A stretch of 33,527 nt of DNA, from assembly GCA_945865815.1 (NCBI GenBank), contig CAMBFR010000038.1:1-33527 (forward strand), written 5' to 3'. Below, one piece after another: positions 8,551 through 33,527 of the stretch. The notes under the pieces were generated by a model. The model saw only the letters and a program-made list of their open reading frames with translations. It was not told where the DNA came from and did not search any database. The DNA is from Candidatus Sulfopaludibacter sp. SbA3. Its GTDB lineage: Bacteria > Acidobacteriota > Terriglobia > 20CM-2-55-15. Position numbers and translations under genes: made by a program. Each line of letters begins with the position of its first letter. Within the stretch, counting starts at the first letter, position 1.

Positions 8551-9696
8551 ATGAAAAAGTTACTCACGGTTGCCATTACAGGAATGACGGCAGTCGCGAT
8601 ACTCCTTTACGCTGCGCAGGAGAGCCAGAGTCAGGGTGCTCTCTCGGCTCTGCCGAAGACCTTGAAGGCGCCGCCGGACAATCCGCTGACGGCGGGCCGG
8701 GTCGCGCTGGGCCGGCTGCTCTTCTGGGATCCCATTCTGTCGGGTAACAAGGATGTGGCGTGCGCCACATGCCATCATCCCCGGTTCGGTTATGCCGAGA
8801 ATCGCGACCTCTCCATTGGCGTGAACGGGACCGGGCTTGGCGGGAACCGGCGATTCCTCTCTCCGAACTCCATTCCCTTCGTGAAGAGAAACAGCCAGAC
8901 CGTGCTGAACGTCGCGTTCAACGGGATCGGCCAGCTGGGCCAATACACTCCTGCTGACGCGCCGATGTTCTGGGACGTTCGCGTGAAAAGCCTCGAAACT
9001 CAGGCATTGGAACCCATCAAATCGTTCGAAGAAATGCGCGGCGATGCTTATCCGGAAGACAAGGCTGTGAGCACTGTTCTCGCCAGGTTGGACGCGATTC
9101 CGGAATATCGATCTTTGTTCACGGAAGAGTTCGGCGGGCGGAACGCCGTTACTGAAGCCAACCTTGGGAAGGCCCTTGCGGCTTTTCAGCGATCGCTGGT
9201 CACGCACAATTCGCCGTTCGATCGCTTTATGCGCGGAGACAGCAATGCCATGACGAGAGTGCAGGTCCAGGGAATGCGGCGATTCGAACGCATCGGCTGC
9301 GCGAATTGTCACAATGGCCCAATGTTCTCGGATTACCTTCCGCACGTTCTGGGCGTTCCGGACAATGTGAAGCTGCCCGAATCCGACCCGGGGATTAAAG
9401 ACACGCCATATGCGTTTCGGACAGCATCCCTCCGGAATCTCGCTTACACTTCACCGTATATGCACAGCGGGGTGTATCCGACGCTGGAGGAAGTAATCGA
9501 GTTCTACGACGACGCGCCGGAGAATCCAAATATCGGGCGCCGGCAAGTGGATCCTCTCGTCCTGCGGCTGCGCAATCCCGACCGCGAATCGGACCTCCTG
9601 ATCGAGTTCCTCAACGCGCTCAATGATGATTCGTTCGACAAGACGATTCCGGCGCAAGTGCCCAGCGGCCTGAACCCTGGGGGCCGGATTGAGTGA
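8551..9696 (+). CDS. Di-heme cytochrome c peroxidase (CcpA/MauG family)
   Basis: A 381-residue periplasmic protein with a signal peptide (residues 1 to about 28). Two c-type heme-binding motifs are present: CATCH at 71-75 and CANCH at 250-254, which mark the low- and high-potential heme domains of bacterial di-heme peroxidases. Members reduce hydrogen peroxide to water with electrons from cytochromes; the MauG branch instead performs protein oxidation. Its length is slightly larger than classic CCP (about 320-350), including an insertion around residues 82-115. The stop is separated by one base from the HpaB-type gene, so the two are almost certainly cotranscribed. Confidence 0.93.
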   Translation: MKKLLTVAITGMTAVAILLYAAQESQSQGALSALPKTLKAPPDNPLTAGRVALGRLLFWDPILSGNKDVACATCHHPRFGYAENRDLSIGVNGTGLGGNRRFLSPNSIPFVKRNSQTVLNVAFNGIGQLGQYTPADAPMFWDVRVKSLETQALEPIKSFEEMRGDAYPEDKAVSTVLARLDAIPEYRSLFTEEFGGRNAVTEANLGKALAAFQRSLVTHNSPFDRFMRGDSNAMTRVQVQGMRRFERIGCANCHNGPMFSDYLPHVLGVPDNVKLPESDPGIKDTPYAFRTASLRNLAYTSPYMHSGVYPTLEEVIEFYDDAPENPNIGRRQVDPLVLRLRNPDRESDLLIEFLNALNDDSFDKTIPAQVPSGLNPGGRIE

Positions 9697-30875: not shown

Positions 30876-31613
30876 ATGCGGAAAAGGTTTCTGGCAGTTC
30901 TAACCTTTATCACTGTCTTCGTTTCGCTCGCCATTTCGGACGTGCCGGTTCCGGCATCGGAGTTCACGTTCGCCCGCGTCGAGTTCACGATGAACCTTTC
31001 GGCGAATTTCCAGCGCGAGGCGCCGTGGCATCACGACTATCCGTTTTCGGAAGATCTCTATCTCACGATGCTCAAAGAAGTTACCAGCGTGAGTACGAGC
31101 CCGGAGTCTTTCAAGATAGTTCGTTTCGACGACCCCGAGGTTTTTCAGTTCCCATTCCTCTATGTTTCCGAGCCCGGCTTCATGGCCCTGACCGAGAAAG
31201 AGGTTGTCGGCCTGCGGGACTACATCAATCGCGGGGGCTTCGTCATGTACGACGACTTCCGTGGACGCGACCTTGTCAATCTGCAACGCCAGATGAAGAG
31301 GGTCTTCCCCGAGCGCGACATGGTCCGGCTCGACGTTTCGCACGAGATTTTCCACACCTTCTACGATATTGAGACTCTCGATATGCAACTGCCCTATGGC
31401 GGCGACGGTGGCGATCCGCGATTTGGCGGCGCGACGCGCGCGGAGTTCTGGGCAATGAAGGACGACGAAGATCGCGTCGTCATGATTGCAAATCAGAACA
31501 ACGATTTTGGCGAATTCTGGGAATGGGTGGATCGTGGCGAGATGCCGTTTCAGCCTGCGGCGCAGTCGGTGAAGTTCGGAATTAATTACCTAATTTACGC
31601 AATGACACATTAG
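30876..31613 (+). CDS. DUF4159 domain-containing secreted protein
   Basis: A 245-residue exported protein with a signal peptide (about 1-27). The segment GGFVMYDDFRG (about 121-131) with a preceding TEKEVVGLRDYINRGG is the DUF4159 signature, a Rossmann-like alpha/beta domain (similar in fold to class I glutamine amidotransferase-like proteins) common in Acidobacteriota, Bacteroidota and Planctomycetota. Standalone versions like this one are usual near MoxR/DUF58 clusters, which are not in this window. Its last 32 bases overlap the convergent D-alanyl-D-alanine carboxypeptidase gene. Confidence 0.9.
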   Translation: MRKRFLAVLTFITVFVSLAISDVPVPASEFTFARVEFTMNLSANFQREAPWHHDYPFSEDLYLTMLKEVTSVSTSPESFKIVRFDDPEVFQFPFLYVSEPGFMALTEKEVVGLRDYINRGGFVMYDDFRGRDLVNLQRQMKRVFPERDMVRLDVSHEIFHTFYDIETLDMQLPYGGDGGDPRFGGATRAEFWAMKDDEDRVVMIANQNNDFGEFWEWVDRGEMPFQPAAQSVKFGINYLIYAMTH

Positions 31614-32784
31614 TCATTGGAATGCCGCCCGATTCCTGGATAACGGCCTTCAGAAAAACGTCCTGAAGCTGTCTGTACCTCAGAACCGATCCCTTCGTAT
31701 TAAATATCGAAAACACCAGCGGCCCGTGGTCCTTCGTGTAGACGATTCCGGCCAGCGTGCTTACTCCGCCGTCCGTGCCAGGCAGCGTTCCGGTCTTTGC
31801 AACGATCCCGCCGCGAAAATCGGCTGAAGAGAAACGCCGCTTCAGCGTTCCATCATCGACGCCCGCGACCGGAAGAATATCCTCGGGCGACATGTCGTGC
31901 GCATCGAGCCATCCGACCAGTTCACGGAACAGCAGCACGGTGCTGCGGGGCGTAATGCGGTTCTGCTCGAGGCCGGACGTGCGCCTCACCAGGATCTCCG
32001 TTTGCGGAATCCCCACCTGTTCCATCAGGAATTGTTCTACGGCTTTGGGACCGCCCAGCGTTTCTCCGAGGCGTTCCGCTATGGGATTGCTGCTGTGGGC
32101 ATTCTGGAAAAGAACGATGTCGCGAAGCGTTGAAGAGGTATGACTCGCCACGAGCGTTCCGCTGAATTCCTGCCCGATTTTCCTTGCGCCGACAATGCGT
32201 ACGCCAACGCTGTTAAGAACGACTCCCAGCCGCTTCATGGAGCGGTCCAGCGTGTAATAATTTCCAAAAGACAATGGTCCTACGACGATGAGATCTCCGG
32301 TTACCCGCGAGATTCCGGCGCGAACCACCTGGCGAATCAATCGCGTAATGTCCATCGAGGAGAGATTCGGATCGCCTTCAGCTCCCAGAATCAGATTGCC
32401 CTTAAGGACGCGCGTTTTCTTGTTGAGGTCGCCATCCATATAAAAGGCGGTCCGGAACCTTCGGTCGGCGCCGAAGCGGGAGAGGGCCGCAAACGTTGTT
32501 GCGACCTTGATGACCGATGCCGGATTGAATGCAATGTCGCTCTGGTAGTCGGCGTAAATGGCTGCGCCATCAAGCGATTCGATGAGGAATCCCTGCGTTT
32601 CCAGGTTGAAACCGCGCTTCGTCAGAGTATTCAGGTACGAACTCTCCGCCATAGTCGGGAAGCGTTCGGGAACGATTGTGGGAAGACCACCCGCGCTGGG
32701 AAACGATGAAGCGAATTCCTGAGCCTGAATCGGCCAGAAGAGGAAAAGGATCAGACATGCGGTTGAGAGCAGGTACCTGATCAT
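31582..32784 (-). CDS. D-alanyl-D-alanine carboxypeptidase/endopeptidase, PBP4 type (peptidase S13)
   Basis: A 400-residue penicillin-binding protein of class C type 4 (DacB-like), which trims or cleaves peptidoglycan cross-links in the periplasm. It has a signal peptide (about 1-21), and the three PBP active-site motifs: SxxK as S90-V-I-K93, SxN as S231-S-N233, and KTG as K330-T-G332. It is shorter than E. coli PBP4 (477), mainly by reduction of the domain inserted between the first two motifs. The 3' end overlaps the DUF4159 gene by 32 bases. Confidence 0.92.
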   Translation of the reverse strand: MIRYLLSTACLILFLFWPIQAQEFASSFPSAGGLPTIVPERFPTMAESSYLNTLTKRGFNLETQGFLIESLDGAAIYADYQSDIAFNPASVIKVATTFAALSRFGADRRFRTAFYMDGDLNKKTRVLKGNLILGAEGDPNLSSMDITRLIRQVVRAGISRVTGDLIVVGPLSFGNYYTLDRSMKRLGVVLNSVGVRIVGARKIGQEFSGTLVASHTSSTLRDIVLFQNAHSSNPIAERLGETLGGPKAVEQFLMEQVGIPQTEILVRRTSGLEQNRITPRSTVLLFRELVGWLDAHDMSPEDILPVAGVDDGTLKRRFSSADFRGGIVAKTGTLPGTDGGVSTLAGIVYTKDHGPLVFSIFNTKGSVLRYRQLQDVFLKAVIQESGGIPMTNVSLRKLGN

Positions 32785-33048
32785 GCGCGACTGAATGTGA
32801 ATCCTGTCATCGTGTTATATCTGTTCAACCGTTCCGTAAAGCGGGACAATTCTGCCAGAAAAATTCCAGAATTAGAAGGGCTCCCATGAAAAAGTGAATA
32901 AATTTTGGATTTCTGCTCAAGCACGGATCAGGCCTCGCGAGATTTTCCAGTCCGTTATCACAGTGCCGCAGGAAACTCTGTTGTATTTTTGACACCATGT
33001 ATTTCTCTACAGGAGTGACTGCACTTTGTCAGAGAGGTGGTCTGGCTA

Positions 33049-33303
33049 ATGCTCATTATCAGCCGTAAGAAGGATCAGAAGATCATCATTGCAGACGACA
33101 TCGAGATTACAGTCCTCGAAGTCGGCCGCAGTCGTGTGCGGTTCGGCATCAAGGCTCCGAAACACGTCACCATTCACACCCGGCTGGAACAGTTACCCAA
33201 CCCTCTGGAAGCAGACCACGAAGCAATCGCCGAAACCCCTGCAGTGGAACCAAAACCAATCCAGGTTTACGCCGCCGTGGCCGGAATACGGAAGCGGAAC
33301 TAG
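33049..33303 (+). CDS. csrA: CsrA-family carbon storage regulator with altered RNA-binding residue
   Basis: An 84-residue homologue of CsrA, a homodimeric RNA-binding regulator of translation. The N-terminus MLIISRKKDQ and the core VGRSRVRFGIKAPKHVTIH fit the family. Two RNA-contact features are unusual: position 44, Arg in E. coli CsrA, is Thr here with Arg shifted to 45, and residue 4 is Ile. The C-terminal tail (about residues 50-84) is longer than E. coli CsrA (61 residues). I start at ATG 33049; an upstream in-frame GTG at 33037 is less likely. The preceding AGAGAGG is only a loose ribosome-binding site. Confidence 0.9.
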   Translation: MLIISRKKDQKIIIADDIEITVLEVGRSRVRFGIKAPKHVTIHTRLEQLPNPLEADHEAIAETPAVEPKPIQVYAAVAGIRKRN

Positions 33304-33330
33304 CCCAGGCGTCCCCAAAAACATACCCCT

Positions 33331-33349
33331 GTCCGATTCAGGACCGGAC
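33331..33349. repeat. REP-like hairpin after csrA
   Basis: GTCCG (33331-33335) pairs with CGGAC (33345-33349) over a 9-base loop, flanked by CCCCT on the left and CCCCCTG on the right. It lies 28 bases past the csrA stop. Such GGACCGGAC hairpins are typical of REP-type repeats and could also act as a terminator. No transposase is nearby. Confidence 0.45.
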
Positions 33350-33381
33350 CCCCTGCCCGACTTGAGGTAGTCTTCTGCAGT

Positions 33382-33400
33382 ATTCCCCTCCTGTTTTAGG
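33382..33400 (+). repeat. Dispersed CCCCTCCT repeat, copy 3 (partial)
   Basis: The 19 bases ATTCCCCTCCTGTTTTAGG are identical to 6101-6119. The rest of the element is degenerate: AGTGGTGCACTGCGGTGTTG replaces the GGGGTGGC...GGGGTGGT arrangement. This is a worn copy in the 3' gap of the window, where no gene is seen from 33304 to 33527. Confidence 0.65.
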
Positions 33401-33527
33401 GTAGTGGTGCACTGCGGTGTTGCTCGTCATAAATGTCAAATGTTGGGATGTCCAATGGGCGATGTCATATGTATTTGTCATATGACTCACTAACCACTTG
33501 GTCGTTCGGTCGTTTTACAAATACATA

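Follow-up and report, generated by a model that had tools for sequence, protein, structure and literature searches.

In a 33,527-nucleotide stretch of Candidatus Sulfopaludibacter sp. SbA3 (contig CAMBFR010000038.1, positions 1 to 33,527; here the window), a csrA gene encodes threonine at position 44, the Arg44 site of CsrA. We refer to its product as the T44 protein, and to CsrA copies that have the arginine as R44. The T44 protein is a stable, diverged CsrA paralog of one Acidobacteriota family. It was observed directly that the protein is conserved, that Thr44 is fixed, that the copies are monophyletic with a gene neighbourhood of their own, and that the gene persists in a genome in which no other CsrA was found.

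To our knowledge, Arg44 is a residue that CsrA proteins are held to be unable to lose. With Thr fixed, the core constrained and no second CsrA found in the genome of the window (G000), the T44 clade is a natural test of the CsrA fold without Arg44.

Threonine 44 and the paralog clade

The window protein belonged to the CsrA superfamily by its match to Pfam PF02599 (62.9 bits, cut-off 27). The match spanned only residues 1-43, on a profile of 53 positions, and the protein missed the equivalog cut-offs of NF002469 (57.8 vs 73) and TIGR00202 (54.5 vs 70.1). Alignment of residues 1-43 with solved CsrA and RsmE chains by phmmer was gapless and placed Thr at 44 and Arg at 45. This bore out the initial annotation, which had read the same two residues there.

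The family of the window (f1; class Terriglobia, Bryobacterales by record labels and the NCBI taxonomy of Candidatus Sulfopaludibacter) was searched with PF02599 in 11 genomes, which yielded 22 loci. The T44 type accounted for nine of these, spread over 8 genomes; the other 13, spread over 10 genomes, had Arg44. Thr44 was present in all nine T44 copies, from 8 of the 11 genomes, and was encoded by all four Thr codons (ACC, ACG, ACT and ACA). R44 CsrA accompanied the T44 gene in 7 of its 8 genomes. In G000, which is 98.25% complete, the search found the T44 gene and no other CsrA.

Arg44 was found in 166 of 182 distinct aligned CsrA sequences, which were picked by similarity to CsrA queries and are no census. 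The sample took in 80 of 118 viral relatives and 59 of 78 class matches outside f1, and 26 of 57 matches of the phylum search were left out of the counts. Position 44 was Arg in 75/75 viral-contig sequences and in 27/27 phylum loci. Of the 59 class loci outside f1, 52 had Arg, five Ala, one Pro and one Met, and the f1 loci other than the window had 10 Arg and 8 Thr. When the alignment with Acidobacteriota CsrA that the initial annotation had proposed was run, Thr44 was absent from the class and phylum samples outside f1. A T44-type copy in viral contigs was also considered and was rejected, as the single relative found there has Arg44.

A profile (A1) was built from seven T44 proteins. Across 399 class genomes, the T44 copies scored at least 89 bits and all others at most 60.8. 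Across 396 phylum genomes, nothing outside f1 scored above 53.7 bits. In a tree of 104 rows and 56 columns, the deep forks of which were unresolved, the nine T44 rows formed one clade (support 100/99). This separate paralog clade, with a gene neighbourhood of its own, goes beyond what the initial annotation contained.

The seven non-Arg44 class sequences formed a clade of their own in the same tree (100/96). On this tree, Arg44 was therefore lost at least twice. These seven are paralogs of family f4, with Ala44 (L050, L052, L053, L054 and L059), Pro44 (L057) or Met44 (L126). Like the T44 type, they have lost Arg44 and carry Arg29 (7/7) and Arg27 (6/7); unlike it, they keep Glu46 (7/7). Most have GRSRVKVGIRAP and an IAREVKL-like sequence at 43-49, and one genome (G047) has two members. 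Derivation of the T44 type from the Ala44 clade of f4 was unsupported, the two being separate clades.

For the pair formed by the window gene and the ortholog from the same genus, nonsynonymous divergence (dN) of the core was 0.009 and synonymous divergence (dS) 0.512, giving a dN/dS of about 0.02. Saturation of dS left most of the wider pairs without a value. The tail evolved faster (dN 0.27, dS 0.47). This, together with the missed equivalog cut-offs, would suit a decaying duplicate or pseudogene, a reading already contradicted because the core is under constraint. Intact reading frames in all nine copies, the keeping of Thr44 through four codons and synteny in 8 of the 9 loci also speak against decay, which we consider highly improbable.

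The RNA-binding site and the alignment register

In E. coli CsrA, according to an excerpt of one report (PMC7652899), the R44A change abolishes regulation and impairs RNA binding, and each RNA site is built by beta1 and beta5 of opposite monomers. An excerpt of a report on RsmN (PMC3791407) states that R62A, at the Arg44 equivalent, weakens RNA binding more than 1,000-fold, that the counterpart of Arg44 both stacks against the RNA and makes contact with it, and that recognition of the GG bases is mainly the work of backbone groups. In the same excerpt, the counterpart of Glu46 bridges to a beta1 Arg (Arg6 in the numbering used here), and Gln29 and Arg31 of RsmE touch the RNA stem.

The T44 clade was altered at the neighbouring positions also. 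Position 46 was Leu, Met or Ile in all nine copies and Glu in none, against Glu46 in 161 of 166 R44 proteins. Val/Ile47 was lost and replaced by Lys, Glu or Gln. On the other hand, the gapless part of the protein resembled CsrA, RsmA and RsmE, with Arg6, Arg31, Ala36-Pro37 and the hydrophobic residues at 40 and 42 all kept. In the T44 copies, R6, R27, R29, R31 and K38 were invariant (9/9), and Lys7 was present in 7/9.

An AlphaFold (AF2) model of the T44 protein, made with 25 sequences, had no helix after residue 35 (mean predicted local distance difference test score, pLDDT, 69; predicted template modelling score, pTM, 0.42). The R44 sister L006, modeled with the same 25 sequences, had helices at 45-61 and 66-76 (mean pLDDT 77.5); this comparison is one between two models of modest confidence. 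In its diverged nature and the absence of the usual C-terminal helix, the T44 protein resembles RsmN of Pseudomonas aeruginosa, as described in the excerpt (PMC3791407), but it has neither the insert of RsmN nor an arginine at 44.

These results agreed with the initial annotation in that the RNA-binding site has changed at the level of the lineage: Thr44 is fixed, and Glu46, Val/Ile47 and the predicted helix are lost alongside. Two other features that it had pointed out were present but carried less weight. Ile does occupy position 4, where it had cited Leu; however, Ile is no signal, being the commonest residue there in other Acidobacteriota (32/59 class and 18/27 phylum sequences). The tail does extend about 20 residues beyond that of E. 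coli CsrA, but this length is not special, for most sister R44 paralogs are about 74-83 aa, about as long as the T44 protein.

A shifted register had been raised as well. Thr44 would then be a single extra residue where beta5 ends, Arg45 would take the role of Arg44, and the protein would be a near-normal GGA binder. An insertion after residue 43 indeed placed Arg at the site in 7 of the 9 copies. Scored against a profile of R44 proteins before gap cost, the shifted register was better in 8/9 (for window residues 44-51, -2.7 bits shifted vs -9.6 bits gapless), and it also restored Glu46 in the window and the same-genus ortholog.

However, Glu46 was restored in only 2/9 copies and Val/Ile47 in none, and the usual gap cost would bring the two registers closer to equal. 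Neither looked canonical: R44 proteins had a mean score of +12.8 bits, whereas the scores here ranged from -1.7 to -15.9 bits. Moreover, the helix that follows Arg44 was not predicted, and position 45 was His or Asn in two copies (L022 and L023). The alignment leans against a simple restoration of Arg, given that position 44 is always Thr and position 45 is variable. We regard a near-normal protein in a shifted register as unlikely.

Gene neighbourhood and possible function

A D-Ala-D-Ala carboxypeptidase gene (S13 family) was divergent to the T44 csrA gene in 8 of the 9 loci. Downstream of csrA and on its strand, yvcK (CofD family, GlmR) and then glmU were found in 7 of these 8. In the eighth, that of G000, the contig ended 224 bases past csrA, and YvcK was located close to where contig C4 ends. 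The ends of the two contigs matched the unbroken locus of G007, so csrA and yvcK are probably adjacent in G000 as well. A tetratricopeptide repeat (TPR) protein was called between csrA and yvcK in 5 of the 7 loci; in the other two the open reading frame caller took antisense frames. The ninth copy (L075; G005, contig C284, about 9248-9451), the second T44-type copy of its genome, was located off the conserved locus and had Gln43 and a shorter tail. The distant genome G031 had TPR, YvcK, GlmU and GlmS together, with no csrA seen up to the contig end.

The R44 copies had a different setting. In 7 of 10 genomes they lay no more than about 2.3 kb from FliW; in G008 the two were on different contigs, and in G009 and G010 there was no FliW match. 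No T44 locus was on a contig stretch with FliW. The FliW-partnered R44 paralogs (L003-L005, L008, L010, L011 and L013-L015) share the genome family and the fold with the T44 type. They differ from it in keeping Arg44, in their flagellar neighbourhood and in their predicted helices (one tested, L006), whereas the T44 type occupies another locus and persists without FliW. Two tandem R44 csrA genes about 0.6 kb apart (L080 and L082) were noted in the flagellar clusters of G004 and G001.

In G000 there was neither a FliW nor an FlhA-family match. In G007 (81% complete) FlhA was also not found and FliW was present. In G000 the T44 protein therefore seems to function with neither FliW nor an R44 partner, unless these genes are in the missing part of the genome.

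These observations bear on the possibility that RNA binding has been lost, and that the T44 protein acts by protein contact, alone or as a dominant-negative subunit mixed with R44 CsrA. The residue on which RNA binding depends is missing, the tail is rewritten, and 7 of the 8 T44 genomes also carry R44 CsrA. Since the sites are built from both monomers (excerpt of PMC7652899), one of the sites in a mixed dimer would be damaged. However, no R44 CsrA was found beside the T44 protein in G000, so no partner is needed there, and the invariance of the basic residues R6, R27, R29, R31 and K38 would be odd if RNA were not bound. We find this explanation rather improbable.

Most likely, the T44 protein is still an RNA-linked regulator, now presumably tied to envelope precursor genes. 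Our tentative preference is for a conserved, diverged CsrA-fold paralog, with a remodelled RNA site, that would serve these genes. The protein keeps the CsrA beta core with the basic Arg6, Lys7 and Arg31 and carries the extra Arg27 and Arg29, but both the Arg44-x-Glu46-Val/Ile47 block and the C-terminal helix have been lost. It would be a dimer that still touches RNA by way of its backbone and of the basic surface of beta1 and beta4, with an affinity or specificity that differs from that of classical CsrA for ANGGA hairpins. The T44 protein would regulate the adjacent yvcK/glmR, glmU and carboxypeptidase genes, and not the flagellar FliW circuit.

Several points weigh against this preference. 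Arg27 and Arg29 occurred together in 15 of 16 Arg44-less sequences (9/9 T44 and 6/7 A/M/P44) vs 6 of 91 cellular R44 sequences, but this association represents only two clades, and its Fisher value is no true probability; Arg29 alone was also found in 29 of the 91. The AlphaFold model is weak, and as a single chain from a family of domain-swapped dimers it does not reach the RNA site of the dimer. YvcK was not found in the three of the 11 family genomes that have no T44 gene (G003, 88% complete; G009; G010, 85% complete), which is in favour of the preferred reading, but this co-occurrence is drawn from 11 genomes, several of them incomplete. Of the five loci that continue past glmU, only three had glmS next (L074, L077 and L081, not L072 and L079). 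Finally, ANGGA was found in 1 of the 9 csrA leaders vs 3.1 expected from mononucleotide shuffles. It was rarer than expected, and therefore there was no sign of classical autoregulation; GGA autoregulation via the csrA leader was rejected as a candidate.

A bolder version of the reading with a remodelled RNA site is that the CsrA fold has been re-tooled for an Arg44-independent RNA (or protein) target. It would link UDP-N-acetylglucosamine supply (YvcK/GlmR-GlmU) to envelope gene expression, as an Acidobacteriota counterpart in role of RapZ-GlmZ, and Arg44 would have been lost with the gain of Arg27/Arg29 at least twice. We consider this conceivable but doubtful. The T44 clade also hints at a possible tie of a CsrA-type regulator to cell-wall precursor supply outside Proteobacteria. 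In the literature search, no title or opening part of an abstract described a CsrA without Arg44 or one encoded in a yvcK/glmU operon.

Features and flanks of the T44 gene

Table 1. Coordinates in the window of the T44 gene, its notable codons and its divergent neighbour
Feature	Position	Strand	Remarks
T44-type CsrA paralog	33049..33303	+	84 aa, ATG start; orthologs share the same start Met
Codon 44, ACC (Thr), Arg44 site of CsrA	33178..33180	+	from the sequence
Codon 45, CGG (Arg)	33181..33183	+	His or Asn in 2/9 T44 copies
Arg27-Ser28-Arg29	33127..33135	+	Arg27 and Arg29 both in 9/9 T44 copies
C-terminal tail, residues 49-84	33193..33300	+	Pro-rich, no predicted helix; most copies end near a G-x-x-K-R motif
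Leader / divergent intergenic region	32785..33048	+	TGTATTTTT...TGTATTTCTC partly conserved; ANGGA not conserved
D-Ala-D-Ala carboxypeptidase, PF02113, S13 family	31582..32784	-	divergent neighbour; same in 8/9 T44 loci

The stretch TGTATTTTT...TGTATTTCTC was located 5' of the T44 csrA gene, at 32980-33030, and was partly conserved in most of the nine loci. It is perhaps a promoter or a regulator site.

On the other side of the gene, at 33304-33527, the contig broke off within the csrA-TPR intergenic region. Its last ~200 bases did not align to the same-genus locus L068, which suggests an insertion or a repeat at the contig break.
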